Positions 12,285 to 23,840 of a DNA stretch of 34,890 bases are shown here, in pieces. Source of the DNA: Armatimonadota bacterium. GTDB taxonomy: Bacteria > Armatimonadota > Zipacnadia > Zipacnadales > FEN-943. Position numbers and translations under genes: made by a program. Position 1 is the stretch's first letter. Each line of letters starts with the position of its first letter. The stretch lies in the NCBI GenBank assembly GCA_026419655.1, contig JANZZA010000274.1:1-34890 (forward strand), given 5' to 3'. The notes below the pieces were generated by a model, which was given only the letters and a program-made list of their open reading frames with translations, ran no database searches and was not told the origin of the DNA.

Positions 12285-12550
12285 ACGGCGGGCTGACTGG
12301 CACTGGGCACCGCCCCGTTAGCGCGTCTAGGTAACGCGACCGGCCAGAAGCACGGCTGGGGCCGGCGGCCTGAAAAGGGGCAGCAAGACAGTACGGCTGG
12401 AGGCGGTCTTCAAGGTGTTTCCCCACGAAGAGGTGTTTAGCAGCCCCTTGCCTGCAAACGGTCCGCCTGCGTGGTTTCCCTCTCTAAAGGTTTCAGCTTG
12501 GCGCAGGGGAAACAAACAACTGCCGCTTATGTATCTTTCCAGGAGGTGTG

Positions 12551-15500
12551 ATGAAGTTGGCGCTGAGGGTCGTGTCTGTTGTTTTCCTATCTTGCGTGAC
12601 CGCTGCCCACGGGCAGAACTCTCAAGGGGTTGAGATAGGCGGCGTGGTATACGAATACGTGGACCCTGGGGAGCCTTTCACTGAGGCGCCACGGCCCGCC
12701 CAGCCGTGGGCGTCGCCGGTGCCAAACCAAGCCGAAAACGAGGCCGGAATGATCCCCTTCGTCACGCCCGACCCTGGTGATTACAGGCCCTATCGCCGCC
12801 CCAAACCTGAGGAGCGTGTGGAAAGCCTCAGTGCCTTCCTCACGCCGGGCGAAGACGAACCACTATGGGTCGGTGTATGGGCGCTGGCTGACCTGGAAGG
12901 CCTGCGCGCAGAAGTGAGCCTGCCCAATGCGCCCCTTTCCGTAGACATTCGTCATCTTCACTGCTGGCCCCAGCGCACCGGCTGGCGCAGCCGCCAGTTC
13001 TATATCACTCCCGAGCTAATCCTGCCTTGCTCGGACGGTCGCAAGGTAGTCCCCGGGCGTCGCGGCGTGCTTGAGGAACGTCCCTTTGACGTGAAGGCCG
13101 GCGAGACGGCGGCCTTCTGGTTCACCCTCACCGCCCGCGACGACGCGCGACCGGGCGCATATAAGGGCACGGTGACCATTGCTACTGCTGGACGCCGGCA
13201 GTTGACTTTACCTCTCACGGTAGAGGTGCTTCCCTTTCGTCTGCAGCGTCCAGCCGACCGCTACTGGCTGCTCTACGCTGACGTGGCCCGCTGGCAACTG
13301 GGCAACCTTACCGATGAGCAAATTCTGTCAGAGTTGCGTGACTTCGCCCGCCATGGCATGACTGGCCTGGTTGAGGTGCCCCTCGGCAAGCCTGATTTGT
13401 CCGGCCTGAAGGAAGGCCGCGTGCAGTTTGACGCAGCTCCCTACAGGCGCCTGGCTGAGCTTTGCCAGCGCGCTGGCCTGCCCGGCCCGCACGTCTGCTC
13501 TTACGGCATCGCCTATCAGGTCATGGAGGCTCTTGGCATCCAGGCCGACCTGATGAAGGACCAGTGGCCGGAAGAAGTCAAAAAGGGTGTCTCAGCCGTT
13601 GCCAGGGCCGCCGTCGAGGCCACTGCCGGCCTGCCGCGCTGGTATTTTTACGGCTGGGACGAGCCAAGCGGTGACAATACTTATGCCGTTCAGGACTACC
13701 AGGCCTGGCATGACGGCGGCGCCCTCACCTATGCTACCTTCTACATGCTAGGTTTTCTGGAAAAGGCCAAGGACTACCTAACAGCACCGTGTTTCGGAGT
13801 TGGCCTGGTCAGCGGCGAAGATTCAGCCCGTGCAGCCCGCGAAGCTTGCGAAAAGACCGGTGCCGAGTTTTGGTGGTACGGCACCGGCTCCTACGTCAAT
13901 CCTTATCCGCAGGAAAGCGGCCTTTTCTACAACCGCTACGGAGCCGGCTTTCTCTTTTGGAAAACCGGGGCCAAAGCCCAGGTCTCCTGGACCTTCTGTC
14001 GGCCGCACGAAGACGTCTTCAATGACTTCGACGGCTCCCCGCACAACGCCGCAGAGCCAAAAGAACAGGTTACGGCCTATCCGCATCTCCTCCGGCCCGA
14101 CGACTGGAGCACGTATCAGGGCGCTATTCCGACGATTGCCTGGGAAGCTTTGCGCGAAGGCTGGGACGACTACCGTTATCTATACACTCTGACGCAGGTC
14201 ATAGCCCAGGCGCGGGCCAGTCGGGATAGGGCAGCCCGGCGTGCTGCTCGCCAGGCCCAGGAGCGCCTCGATGCCCTGGTAGAAGCAATCCCCTGGGCCA
14301 ATCCAATGCTGCCGGCGGCCTTTCCAACCGACGTGATGCAGAAAGCGCGGCGTGCCGTAGCCGACGAGATACTTGCCCTGCAGGATCTGCTATCCGGCCG
14401 GCGCGAGCGCACCACAGCAGCGCCAGAGGCGCGCGTAAGACTGACCGTGCGCACTCTGGCGGCAGGTGATGCCGTCCCTTTATCCCTGCCGGCGGCGGTG
14501 GTAGCGACCGCCTCGGGGCCACCCCGAGTGGACGGCGTTCTGGATGACGCCTGCTGGGAGCAAGCTCAGGCAGTCTCGGACTTTGTGGACCACGCCACCG
14601 GCAAGCCAGCCCCCATCGAAACGCTCGCACGAATCTGCCAGGACGATGATGCTTTGTACGTGGCCTTCGACTGCGCCGAGCCGCGCATGGACGCCCTTGT
14701 TGCCAGGCGCGGCGGCCGGGACGCCGACGGCGTCTGGCTGGAGGACAGCGTCGAATTTTTTCTTGCAGGCCCGACCCGGCGGCCCTATGCCCACGTGATA
14801 GTGAACGTTGAGGGTACCCTCTACGATGAAGTCGGCCAGGACTCATCCTGGAACGCGGACATCAAAGCAGCCGTCGGCCGGCGGCGGGATGGCTGGAGCG
14901 TGGAGATAGCTTTGCCCTGGAAGGACCTGGAAGCCGCGGGCATTAAACGGGCGCCTCTCATGACGGGGAATTTTTGCCGCAACCGCTTCGCTGGCCGGGA
15001 GACCAATGTAAACCCGCATAGCGCATGGTCTTTCCCCAACGGGTACTTCCATACTCGTGAGCGCTTTGGAATTCTCCAGCTTGCGCCCGGGCCGGTGGTA
15101 CTCTCGCGGGTGATGGTGCCGGGCTACTGGGGGCCGCAGGAGATGCAGGTGGTACTCAGCAATACCGACACTGCTGAGCGTCTGGCCTGGGTTCTCTTTG
15201 ACGGCCGGCGCCAGGCCAAAGCCCTCCCCCCACGAGCGGCAGGTGCCTTTTTCTTTCCGGTGAACCTGTCGCAGCCCGGACCAAAAACACTAACGTTCAC
15301 TTATGGCGCCGAGAGTCAGGCCCATCAGCGTGCGGAAGTCGTTGTCCCGGTTCCCCATCCTCTCTCTGTCGCCCAGTGGCCCTCCCTGGTCGAGGACGGC
15401 CACGAGGCGCTGGTGGTCGTGACGGTCGGTACCTCTCCGCAAGACCCCAGCTCATTCCGATTGCGGGTAACCGTCTCCGACCCGGCAGACCGTCACCAGT

Positions 15501-15649
15501 TGGAAATGGCGGCAAAGCCGGGCCGCCTGCGGCGAGTGGCCTTGTCTCTCCGCGGTCTCGCCACCATCCGCGCAGAGCTTCTTGATGCAGACGGAAAGGC
15601 CGTGGCGCTGCCCATCGAGCGCCGTGCGGTGGTACTGGGCGGGCTTTGA
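12551..15649 (+). CDS. Secreted DUF4091 (GH123-like) protein with C-terminal CBM9-like domain
   Basis: AGGAGG at 12541-12546 before ATG; signal peptide MKLALRVVSVVFLSCVTAAHGQ; 'YFYGWDEPSGD' and 'TIAWEALREGWDDYRYLYTL' typical of DUF4091 proteins; 'PPRVDGVLDDACWEQAQAVSDFVDHATG...DDALYVAFDCAEP...WLEDSVEFFL' typical of CBM9/DOMON-like domains. Confidence 0.85.
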   Translation: MKLALRVVSVVFLSCVTAAHGQNSQGVEIGGVVYEYVDPGEPFTEAPRPAQPWASPVPNQAENEAGMIPFVTPDPGDYRPYRRPKPEERVESLSAFLTPGEDEPLWVGVWALADLEGLRAEVSLPNAPLSVDIRHLHCWPQRTGWRSRQFYITPELILPCSDGRKVVPGRRGVLEERPFDVKAGETAAFWFTLTARDDARPGAYKGTVTIATAGRRQLTLPLTVEVLPFRLQRPADRYWLLYADVARWQLGNLTDEQILSELRDFARHGMTGLVEVPLGKPDLSGLKEGRVQFDAAPYRRLAELCQRAGLPGPHVCSYGIAYQVMEALGIQADLMKDQWPEEVKKGVSAVARAAVEATAGLPRWYFYGWDEPSGDNTYAVQDYQAWHDGGALTYATFYMLGFLEKAKDYLTAPCFGVGLVSGEDSARAAREACEKTGAEFWWYGTGSYVNPYPQESGLFYNRYGAGFLFWKTGAKAQVSWTFCRPHEDVFNDFDGSPHNAAEPKEQVTAYPHLLRPDDWSTYQGAIPTIAWEALREGWDDYRYLYTLTQVIAQARASRDRAARRAARQAQERLDALVEAIPWANPMLPAAFPTDVMQKARRAVADEILALQDLLSGRRERTTAAPEARVRLTVRTLAAGDAVPLSLPAAVVATASGPPRVDGVLDDACWEQAQAVSDFVDHATGKPAPIETLARICQDDDALYVAFDCAEPRMDALVARRGGRDADGVWLEDSVEFFLAGPTRRPYAHVIVNVEGTLYDEVGQDSSWNADIKAAVGRRRDGWSVEIALPWKDLEAAGIKRAPLMTGNFCRNRFAGRETNVNPHSAWSFPNGYFHTRERFGILQLAPGPVVLSRVMVPGYWGPQEMQVVLSNTDTAERLAWVLFDGRRQAKALPPRAAGAFFFPVNLSQPGPKTLTFTYGAESQAHQRAEVVVPVPHPLSVAQWPSLVEDGHEALVVVTVGTSPQDPSSFRLRVTVSDPADRHQLEMAAKPGRLRRVALSLRGLATIRAELLDADGKAVALPIERRAVVLGGL

Positions 15650-19403: not shown

Positions 19404-20174
19404 TCAGGTTACATCTGCGGCCGCCGATGTTTCGCTGCGCCGGACGCGAATGCAAGCAGCCAGTTCGTCGTCGAGGGCCAGAGTAGTGCCGCCGATGCGC
19501 ACAACGTAAGTGGGCGCCGTCTGCAGCACCGCGATGGGCTGGCCTGGAAAAAGTCCCACTGAAGCCATTTGGCCGATCCTCCGCCCGCCCCGACGGCGCA
19601 TTTCGGCATCGTCTTTTGCAGCCGCTTGGGGTGGAGGTCCGCCCCAGCCGCGCGGTCCCCCCCGGATAGGTCCTGGCACGCACGTGATGTATGCAACCGT
19701 GCCGGCCTGGCCAGCTTTCATTTCTGTTAGTGGGACCACCGCTGGCCGGACGGCCATAGCTCCCGCCTGGCAGCACGGCCCTGGAGGGATGCGGTGACGG
19801 TGCGGGCACTCGGTTGGGTGGCCCAAAAGCGTGCAGATGCTGTCGGCCAGCTCCGGGCTTACGATGTGCTCCATCTCGCCGGCTATATAGTCGCCGCTAT
19901 CTGGCTCCATTCCCAGCACGTCCGCCATCAGTCTTTCCGCGAGACGGTGGCGCCGTACTACGTCGCGTGCACGTTCGACGCCGGCCTCGGTTAGCGACAG
20001 CTTGCCCTCGTGCTCTGTAACCGAGCCGTCTTCCGCGAGGCTCTCTACAGCTTCGCCGTTGTGGCGCATTATCTCCGGGTGAGACCGGTCTACCGGTCCT
20101 TCATTCTGCTCAATCTCCAGGTAGTATAGTGCATGCAGCAGGTGGTCTTTTCTTTGCGAAAGCGGTTCGCTCAT
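19404..20174 (-). CDS. DtxR/MntR-family metal-dependent regulator fused to C-terminal FeoA (SH3-like) domain
   Basis: N-terminal wHTH plus 'RRHRLAERLMADVLGMEPDSGDYIAGEMEHIVSPELADSICTLLGHPTECPHRHRIPPGPCC'; C-terminal FeoA-like 'IGQMASVGLFPGQPIAVLQTAPTYVVRIGGTTLALDDELAACIRV'; 12-nt gap from feoB. Confidence 0.88.
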   Translation of the reverse strand: MSEPLSQRKDHLLHALYYLEIEQNEGPVDRSHPEIMRHNGEAVESLAEDGSVTEHEGKLSLTEAGVERARDVVRRHRLAERLMADVLGMEPDSGDYIAGEMEHIVSPELADSICTLLGHPTECPHRHRIPPGPCCQAGAMAVRPAVVPLTEMKAGQAGTVAYITCVPGPIRGGPRGWGGPPPQAAAKDDAEMRRRGGRRIGQMASVGLFPGQPIAVLQTAPTYVVRIGGTTLALDDELAACIRVRRSETSAAADVT

Positions 20175-20186
20175 GGCCCTCCCCCG

Positions 20187-22601
20187 TCAAAAGCTTATGC
20201 CCAAAGCTCGAAAGGCGAAGTTGGCGACAGAACCCGTCAACACAGCAAGCCCCATAATTATGACAGCAAGGGATGCTGTCCGCCGAAGCCCTTGTTCCTT
20301 GACAATGACTAATAAATTCGCCAGGCACGGGACGAAAAGTGTGATGACTATCAGAGCTACGACTACCTGAAGATTGTCCAGTTTTCCCTGTTGCTGCAAG
20401 TCATAGAGGCCAGCGGCTGCGTAGTCCCGGCGCAAAAAGCCGACAATGAATGCGAAGGTTGCCTCATGTGGTAAGGATAGCAGCCTGACAACTACCGGGG
20501 CTGCTGCCCGCTCCATTGCCTTCAGGCCGCCAAACCAGGCCAATACCGCCAGGGCCGCTGTGCCTATCAGGAAGTAAGGGACGGCCTCGCGCAAGAACCA
20601 CTCGGCCCGCTGCCAGGTCTTGCGCAGGACGTTGCGGGCCAGCGGTAGGCGCAAGGGTGGTATTTCGCAAAGAAAATCCGTGCTTTCACCCGGCAACAGT
20701 CGGTTTGCCAGCCAGCCGGCCAGAAAAAGCTGAGCCAGGACGACGCCAAACACAGCTAGAACTACCCTCGGGCCGACAGCGCCACCCAGGGCGAGAATGA
20801 TGCCCAACTGGGCCGAACACGGAGTTGCAAAGGCAAGAAGAAACGTCGCGATGATGCGCGCCTTGGGGCTTTCAAGGACACGGGCCGCCAGGGTGGCCAT
20901 GGTCACACATCCCAGCCCCAGCACGAAAGGTACCACTGCCCGCCCGCTAAGCCCTATCTTGGTAAAGAAGCGATTCGCCAGCACCGATAGCCGCGCGATG
21001 TATCCCGAGTCTTCCAGCAGGCCCAACAGCAGGAAAAAGAAAACGATGATGGGCAGGACAATGCCGAAAGCGTAACGCAGGCCCATGGAGAAAACTCCGT
21101 ACTGGCCCACAAGGCAGTATCGGAGAAACTCCGAGTCTATTCCACCCGTCACAAGAGCGTAAATCCGCGGCACGACAAGCCCTTGCCCGCGGCGTACTAA
21201 AGCTGCCTCTGCTACGCTGGCACCCTGTCCCGGGGCGAGCTGGAGCACGATAGCGTATTCCACTGCATCTTGCGATGGGGTGAAGACTGCTCGGTAAAAC
21301 GAAGCACCGGCGCCTGCCACCGAGGGAGCCATAGTAAACTGTTCCCTCTGGCCGTCGCGCAGTCGCAGGGCCACCCTAGCCTTTGGGGCGGGGCCACCCG
21401 ACGGCCTAGCGGCCAGCCTGGCCTCAAAGGTCGCGCCGGCAGGCAGCCTGGTTGGGCAGCCTGGGCCCGGCAGGAGTCTAATCCTCAGCGCGACGTCAGG
21501 CCTTTGGGGTCTGATGACCGCTTCTGTGCCCGTCACTTGCAAGGCGGCCGCTGGTTCAGTTTCCACGTGCGCTGGAAGCTCGCGCTCGCCTAAGACCATC
21601 ACCGGCTCCGGAGGTGTCCCGATCACGCTGTTTGCCATCCAATCTGCCACCGTGCCCGCTCCAAGCCTGCCAACCACCACGTACAGGATGATCAGCACCA
21701 ATGCAAGAATTATCGGCCCCAGGATTGGGTTCATTGTGGCAGCGGAAGCCACTGCGCCCAACCGGCTTACCGAAACTCTTCGCTGCGTTGTCACCTGCCG
21801 GGCCAGCTCGTCAGCCATCCGCCACCGTGCCTGTCCAACAACCCAGCCTGGACCGTCCGCGTACTTTGCCAGAAGCCTTCGGCGCACTGCCTCGGCTGCC
21901 TGAACGACCTCGGGCCCCCCGTGTTCTGTTAGCCATTTCTCCAGCTCGGCATCATCGCTGGCCAGCAGAGTCAATGCCACGCCGCGCTTATCTAGCGGCA
22001 GGTCAGGGAGCAAGGCTGCCACCTGCTCGGCAGCCTTCTCAATCTCCGGCGGATAGGGCACGGCAAGCTTGGGTGGTCTTGCTCGGCGCAGCGCATGGAA
22101 AAGCTCCGTAATGCCCCGACGCTCGACGGCTACTGTGGGCACTACCTCTACCCCAAGAGCGTGGGCGAGCTTGTCATGGTTTATGCTAATGCCGTCTATG
22201 GCGGCCTCATCCACCATGTTGAGGGCCACAACGACGGGCACGCCCAGCTCGGCCAGCTCTGCGGTGATACGCAGGCCGCGGTTGAGGTTCCGCGCATCTA
22301 TCACCTGAAGGACTACATCAGCGCCGCCAAGTACCAGCTCGCGCGTCACCAGCTCGTCCACGCTCACCGGCACCAGGCTGTTTATGCCCGGCGTGTCAAT
22401 GACTTCTGGCTGGTGGCCGCGGCCGCGCAGGCGTCCACGGGCCATTTCTACTGTCGTGCCCGGATAGTTTGAAACTGTTGCGTAACGTCCCGTCAGGAGA
22501 TTGAAAAGCACGCTCTTGCCGACGTTGGGATTCCCAACCAGGAGAATCCGCTCTGGGGCGTGCGTTTGAGACTTCTGACAGGGTTCTGGTGTGTCGGTCA
22601 T
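20187..22601 (-). CDS. feoB: Ferrous iron transport protein B (FeoB) with inserted extracytoplasmic domain
   Basis: N-terminal G domain (G1 GNPNVGKS, G3 DTPG, G4-like NMVD); membrane part 'VFFFLLLGLLEDSGYIARLSVLANRFFTKIGLSGRAVVPFVLGLGCVTMATLAARVLESPKARIIATFLLAFATPCSAQLGIILAL'. Residues ~329-474 are an insertion. Confidence 0.93.
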   Translation of the reverse strand: MTDTPEPCQKSQTHAPERILLVGNPNVGKSVLFNLLTGRYATVSNYPGTTVEMARGRLRGRGHQPEVIDTPGINSLVPVSVDELVTRELVLGGADVVLQVIDARNLNRGLRITAELAELGVPVVVALNMVDEAAIDGISINHDKLAHALGVEVVPTVAVERRGITELFHALRRARPPKLAVPYPPEIEKAAEQVAALLPDLPLDKRGVALTLLASDDAELEKWLTEHGGPEVVQAAEAVRRRLLAKYADGPGWVVGQARWRMADELARQVTTQRRVSVSRLGAVASAATMNPILGPIILALVLIILYVVVGRLGAGTVADWMANSVIGTPPEPVMVLGERELPAHVETEPAAALQVTGTEAVIRPQRPDVALRIRLLPGPGCPTRLPAGATFEARLAARPSGGPAPKARVALRLRDGQREQFTMAPSVAGAGASFYRAVFTPSQDAVEYAIVLQLAPGQGASVAEAALVRRGQGLVVPRIYALVTGGIDSEFLRYCLVGQYGVFSMGLRYAFGIVLPIIVFFFLLLGLLEDSGYIARLSVLANRFFTKIGLSGRAVVPFVLGLGCVTMATLAARVLESPKARIIATFLLAFATPCSAQLGIILALGGAVGPRVVLAVFGVVLAQLFLAGWLANRLLPGESTDFLCEIPPLRLPLARNVLRKTWQRAEWFLREAVPYFLIGTAALAVLAWFGGLKAMERAAAPVVVRLLSLPHEATFAFIVGFLRRDYAAAGLYDLQQQGKLDNLQVVVALIVITLFVPCLANLLVIVKEQGLRRTASLAVIIMGLAVLTGSVANFAFRALGISF

Positions 22602-22613
22602 GGTGTTGTCTTA

Positions 22614-23840
22614 TCAGTGCCCGACCTGCATCTTCCGGACTGGGCGGCGCACGGTGAAACTTTTGGCCCCTTCGCCCCACAGCACCGTTACAAGGCATGT
22701 CAGGTTCGCCAGAGCCTTTTCAGGGTCACCGGCCGCAAGCGAAAACACCAGTTCCTTCGCCTCTCCGGGCGGCACCGACACGGAAACATCTAGTGGGTCG
22801 AGTTTGTCGCAGTAAGCCAGGCCTTCCCACCGCAGCCAGGCGCGGATTGTACTGTCCGTCTCGTTTGTTATAGGTAGGGTGAGCGTCACGACATCCCGTT
22901 GCCGAGGGTGCACAGCTTGCAGCGAGCCTATCCCGGCGGCCATACGGCGCACCACTTCCGCCTGCTCCTGGGTGACCGCATCTTCGGCTTCGACGGCCCC
23001 GGTCTTGATGACGGCCCAGTGTACTGCATCCCCCTTCACGCTCACCAGCAGATAGTGATGAAAATCCCCAGCTTCAGGCAGCGGGCCTGTCTCTGAGCCG
23101 CCGCCCCCGCAAATTACGTATCGCACGCCATCGCGTTCCGGTAGCAGATTGTAGACGTGATGGTGTCCAGCAAAGCAGACTTTGGTCAGCGCCGGGTGCC
23201 TTCTCAGCAGCTCGTGGATGGCGTCCCAGCGCGTCTGCGGCCCACCGATAAACAGAGGTTGGTGTACGAAGACGAACAGTTGGCGTGCGTCCTGGTGCGC
23301 CTCAAGCTGAGCCGCTACCCACTGCTCCTGTTCGGCGCCGATCATACCGGGGTTTGCGGCCTCATCTGACGCCAGGCACAGGAAAAGCGCACTGCCATAC
23401 CTGAAGGCATAGTACATCGGCCCGACCAGCTCTCTCCACAGTTCTTCGTGCATTGGCTTGGATACGTCGTGGTTGCCTACTACCGGAAATAAGGGAACCC
23501 GACAGCGCTCCACTACTTCGAAGTACGCGTCCCACATTCGCTTGAGCTGCGCGCGGTCGTCGGAATAGCCAAAGATTAGGTCGCCGATGATGACTGCAAA
23601 GTCTGGCCGGAGGACATTGATCTCGGCCACGGCCCGCTCGAATACCGGCGATGGGACGATGGGCATGAAGTGGCGCACGTCGGCCATGACGACGAAGGCC
23701 CAGCGGGGGCCTGGATCGCGCTGGAGGGATAGGGCATTGAGGGCGTCCGCTATAGTATGGCCGGCCAGAGCCACCGACGAAAAAACACTCGCGAACGAAA
23801 GAATGGCCGTCAGCAAGAATATCAGGGCCACGCGCTTCAT
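22614..23840 (-). CDS. Exported calcineurin-like metallophosphoesterase with C-terminal beta-rich domain
   Basis: Signal peptide MKRVALIFLLTAILSFASVFSSVALA; 'DFAVIIGDLIFG', 'PLFPVVGNHDVS', 'VCFAGHHHVYN' metallophosphoesterase motifs. Confidence 0.88.
   Translation of the reverse strand: MKRVALIFLLTAILSFASVFSSVALAGHTIADALNALSLQRDPGPRWAFVVMADVRHFMPIVPSPVFERAVAEINVLRPDFAVIIGDLIFGYSDDRAQLKRMWDAYFEVVERCRVPLFPVVGNHDVSKPMHEELWRELVGPMYYAFRYGSALFLCLASDEAANPGMIGAEQEQWVAAQLEAHQDARQLFVFVHQPLFIGGPQTRWDAIHELLRRHPALTKVCFAGHHHVYNLLPERDGVRYVICGGGGSETGPLPEAGDFHHYLLVSVKGDAVHWAVIKTGAVEAEDAVTQEQAEVVRRMAAGIGSLQAVHPRQRDVVTLTLPITNETDSTIRAWLRWEGLAYCDKLDPLDVSVSVPPGEAKELVFSLAAGDPEKALANLTCLVTVLWGEGAKSFTVRRPVRKMQVGH

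Follow-up and report, generated by a model that had tools for sequence, protein, structure and literature searches.

The window analyzed is a stretch of 34,890 nucleotides, contig JANZZA010000274.1 of an Armatimonadota bacterium (GCA_026419655.1). Its minus strand carries at 20187..22601 a feoB gene, a single open frame that encodes an 804-residue ferrous iron transporter with an extra domain. The protein was identified as FeoB by its score against TIGR00437 (383 bits versus a cutoff of 315.65) and by the FeoB_N, FeoB_Cyto, Gate and FeoB_C domains, each of which scored above its Pfam cutoff. By use of an FeoB_C search, this protein was found to be the only FeoB of its genome. The cytoplasmic GTPase (FeoB_N) domain at residues 18-170 (22092..22550, minus strand) was assigned from PF02421 (E 4.4e-51) and the NFeoB crystal structures, and the Gate/FeoB_C membrane region at residues 502-804 (20190..21098, minus strand) from PF07670 and PF07664, with pLDDT values mostly of 84-98. 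The first transmembrane helix (TM1), which the first-pass annotation had placed immediately ahead of the extra domain, was confirmed to be present by hydropathy, with its extent now corrected to the predicted residues 294-327 (21621..21722, minus strand; a helix of pLDDT about 90 in the full-length model). Within the G-domain motifs and among the pore residues (GLGC, PCSAQ, EDSGY and RRD), every position without variation in 62 other FeoBs was found to be retained. A damaged pore was considered and rejected: V566 and A728 differ from the residues of the two insert-bearing relatives described below, but both occur in other FeoBs. V566 (20904-20906, minus strand) lies within the Gate motif GLGC-V-T and is replaced by D in both relatives, while A728 (20418-20420, minus strand) is replaced by G in both.

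The feoB gene is followed after 12 bp by a gene for an iron-dependent repressor C-domain fused to FeoA (DtxR-FeoA; 19404..20174, minus strand; PF02742 and PF04023). Homologues of DtxR-FeoA follow feoB at two further loci (L136:2360-3244 and L137:6590-7348), and many FeoBs of this type have such a neighbor. Of the 74 positions of the Pfam FeoA profile, the match covers only 27-73; the FeoA region contains a Gly/Pro-rich stretch in the window and genome G001 (His/Gly/Pro-rich in the latter), but not in genome G033. Upstream, a gene for a calcineurin-like phosphoesterase (22614-23840, minus strand) ends 12 bp before feoB; a different gene, a Fur-like ORF, occupies this position in G033, and the phosphoesterase-feoB pairing is thus not conserved. 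Elsewhere in the window, a 1033-residue protein (12548-15649, plus strand) bears a CBM9_1 domain at residues 661-794. Since the invariant pore residues are retained and DtxR-FeoA adjoins feoB as usual, the core of the window FeoB looks intact, and Fe(II) transport is its predicted function.

The departure from an ordinary FeoB lies in the loop after TM1, which is nearly constant in length in other FeoBs and is here enlarged by about 145 residues. The inserted segment begins directly after TM1 and spans residues 329-474 (21617 down to 21180, minus strand), in exact agreement with the first-pass annotation. That annotation had also described the loop as normally short, and alignment with 62 FeoBs from named genomes bore this out: the distance from G311 to Y501 is 191 residues in the window FeoB, compared to a median of 46 and a range of 42-98. 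No hydrophobic span was detected in the insert, for which the largest 19-residue Kyte-Doolittle mean is 1.25. The N- and C-termini of FeoB are described as cytoplasmic in PMC10353542 and PMC4847171; the established topology of FeoB would therefore place the loop after TM1 outside, and on this basis residues 329-474 are predicted to be extracytoplasmic. A short TM1-TM2 loop is a customary trait of FeoB that stands outside the TIGR00437 cutoff. The window protein lacks this trait but shares with the known family the full domain set, the pore residues that never vary and a DtxR-FeoA gene next door; the insert is an addition, with no defining feature lost. Smaller enlargements of the same loop, of about 30-52 extra residues and different in sequence, were found in Gemmatimonadota (L082 and L101), Ignavibacteriota (L128 and L131) and Planctomycetota (L076, L085 and L092), and are apparently independent insertions in separate lineages. 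Because a few FeoBs of these three other phyla carry smaller and different enlargements, the first extracytoplasmic loop is regarded as a permissive site.

Homologous inserts of 147-148 residues, with the same start and end junctions, were found in two independent assemblies (L003 and L004), which ruled out an assembly or frameshift artefact. The genomes in question are G001, of the same family (FeoB 53% identical to that of the window), and G033, of the same order (48%). Pairwise BLASTP of the three inserts with flanks trimmed gave E values of 2e-11, 4e-5 and 5e-4; the real score in each leave-one-out profile test was reached by none of about 930 shuffles. When an insert profile was searched against 291 Armatimonadota genomes, high significance was reached only in the window genome, G001 and G033, with no clear insert found in any other; G002, also of the same family, has a single close FeoB match, a fragment of the C-terminal part located at the end of a contig. 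When a tree was built from 85 FeoBs with the insert cut out beforehand, the three insert-bearing proteins formed one clade (SH-aLRT 99) with one inferred change, and a single gain is therefore the simplest history. No insert homologues were detected in 72,556 plasmids, none in 80 genomes of the phylum of L053 (a search that had no positive control), and none in a first scan of genome contigs with a single protein. Weak matches outside FeoB in the relatives were set aside after detailed reading, as they seem to reflect chance or a general likeness among strands. Taken together, the insert is genuine and inherited, and gives a known transporter a variant architecture that is confined to one lineage.

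To what fold the insert belongs was examined by AlphaFold2 and Foldseek. When modelled alone from its single sequence, without homologues, the insert was predicted to be all-beta with nine strands, at a mean pLDDT of 65 and a pTM of 0.62. Core blocks in this model reached 72-89 and the first 25 residues were below 50; the predicted beta-sandwich core spans residues 352-470 (21192..21548, minus strand). Only the best of the five models was decent (pLDDT 65, 52, 38, 33 and 32). In the full-length model, a run that used 62 homologues without this insert, the FeoB core was mostly at 82-98 and the insert at about 50, with most strands at places similar to those in the isolated model. The top Foldseek match among solved structures was a hyaluronan-binding module (4d0q; E 2.9e-5, TM 0.53), followed by Cry proteins and the CBM16 structure 2zey and, lower, by CBM29, CBM22 and CBM4-2. 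The TM scores of these CBM and jelly-roll matches were about 0.45-0.55, where values near 0.5 are borderline. Matches from a fold search of a viral library were for the most part phage tail and fibre proteins, and were uninformative beyond the fold class. The insert is thus probably a jelly-roll of the galactose-binding-like or CBM type, an assignment moderately supported by the models and in line with the fold proposed by the first-pass annotation.

The more specific part of that proposal, membership in CBM4/9, did not survive comparison by sequence. None of the three inserts matched a CBM family of Pfam at E values up to 10, which led us to reject CBM_4_9 (PF02018), and the insert had no match to any Pfam family and no credible relative of solved structure by sequence. 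Alignment by hhalign to the CBM_4_9 domains of relatives gave a probability of 23% over 29 columns, and the CBM_4_9 HMM scored the window insert at 4.6 bits, barely above shuffled sequences (7 of 1591 reached this score). The inserts have 0, 0 and 1 Trp residues, compared to a median of 5 and a minimum of 2 in the CBM_4_9 domains of the relatives. These genomes are rich in CBM_4_9 domains, with 13 matches in the genome of the window and 37 in G001, and a diverged copy of such a domain is a plausible source of the insert. The likeness to CBM4/9, 16, 22 and 29 and to related galactose-binding-like jelly-rolls is thus one of predicted fold; by contrast to the insert, which lies in a loop of a membrane transporter, the CBM modules are found in secreted enzymes.

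Several explanations of the insert were weighed against these data. A disordered or decaying linker, over-interpreted as a beta domain, would accord with the composition of the window insert, which is rich in Ala and Pro (26 and 17 of 144 residues), and with the low confidence of the insert in the full-length model and of residues 1-25 in the isolated one. We consider this improbable, as a coherent nine-strand sheet was predicted from a single sequence and the inserts can be aligned across genera with frame and length preserved; the all-beta prediction likewise speaks against the linker outcome that the first-pass annotation had named as one refutation, although with one of five models carrying it, and the other refutation that it had named, a length standard for the loop, is contradicted by the alignment. 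A second proposal, that the domain senses or pre-concentrates iron for the channel as Fe(II), Fe(III) or a chelate, draws on the position of the insert next to an iron channel and is conjectural. The three inserts share no conserved His, Cys, Asp or Met, and of their acidic residues just two Glu are conserved; the window insert has 1 His, 1 Cys and a basic pI of 9.8, unlike a cation-collecting surface. This pattern disfavors an iron-binding role, which we regard as very unlikely.

A folded domain that binds no ligand, and that stabilizes an FeoB oligomer or is merely tolerated in the loop as a passive cap, has more in its favor. Identity among the three genomes is 22-27% for the inserts compared to 53-60% for the FeoB cores, no surface motif is conserved among the three inserts, Trp is almost absent, and the same loop tolerates the smaller, unrelated inserts of other phyla. 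Given that evolution is much faster in the insert than in the core and that no surface motif is kept, a shared specific ligand is doubtful, and the absence of Trp from two of the three inserts disfavors a classical aromatic sugar platform. The length of 147-148 residues has nonetheless been kept over deep divergence, and in the pairs that include the window insert codon positions 1 and 2 are more alike than position 3 (0.41-0.49 versus 0.27-0.28), an excess less clear for the G001-G033 pair. Kept length and codon pattern together suggest selection for the fold, though not necessarily for binding, and the data accord with a fold that is maintained while its sequence is weakly constrained. A passive cap is possible but rather unlikely, and it is the main rival of the role that we infer to be most likely for the domain, docking or positioning at the mouth of the channel.

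The docking reading may be set out as follows. An ancestor of one Armatimonadota lineage would have gained, once, a self-folding beta-sandwich domain in a canonical GTPase-coupled Fe(II) channel. The domain would have been placed in the first extracytoplasmic loop, which links TM1 to the short helices ahead of the Gate domain, and would lie above the outer channel mouth. There it may serve as a docking or positioning module in contact with either a polymer of the cell envelope or a surface protein that delivers iron. Fe(II) would still pass through the conserved Gate pore, and the domain would tune the place and the source from which FeoB is supplied instead of carrying iron itself. Taken as a whole, this reading of a single-gain extracytoplasmic jelly-roll that docks or positions at the channel mouth is held with modest confidence. 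A narrower form, in which a lectin-like module tethers the Fe(II) channel to a specific partner, either a polysaccharide of the envelope or a surface protein that carries iron, is offered as speculation and is itself rather improbable.

Extracytoplasmic beta-rich domains between the TM helices of a membrane protein are found in MalF (P2) and YidC (P1), of which MalF P2 docks a binding protein. These domains differ from the insert in fold, family and transport mechanism, and the likeness is one of analogy only. The first-pass annotation knew of no FeoB described with such a domain; likewise, none is mentioned in the open literature searched, a set that excluded bioRxiv preprints and most subscription papers. 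The passages found in four FeoB papers (PMC4847171, PMC8980893, PMC8749426 and PMC10353542) address the cytoplasmic GTPase, FeoA/FeoC and the pore, and make no mention of an external domain.

The first extracytoplasmic loop of FeoB accepts the insertion of a whole domain, and the position of the insert might be used to tag the full-length protein in structural studies. A folded external module on a natural FeoB would provide a handle on events at the outer channel mouth. If the lectin-like tether were true, iron would be drawn from a bound reservoir instead of from free solution.
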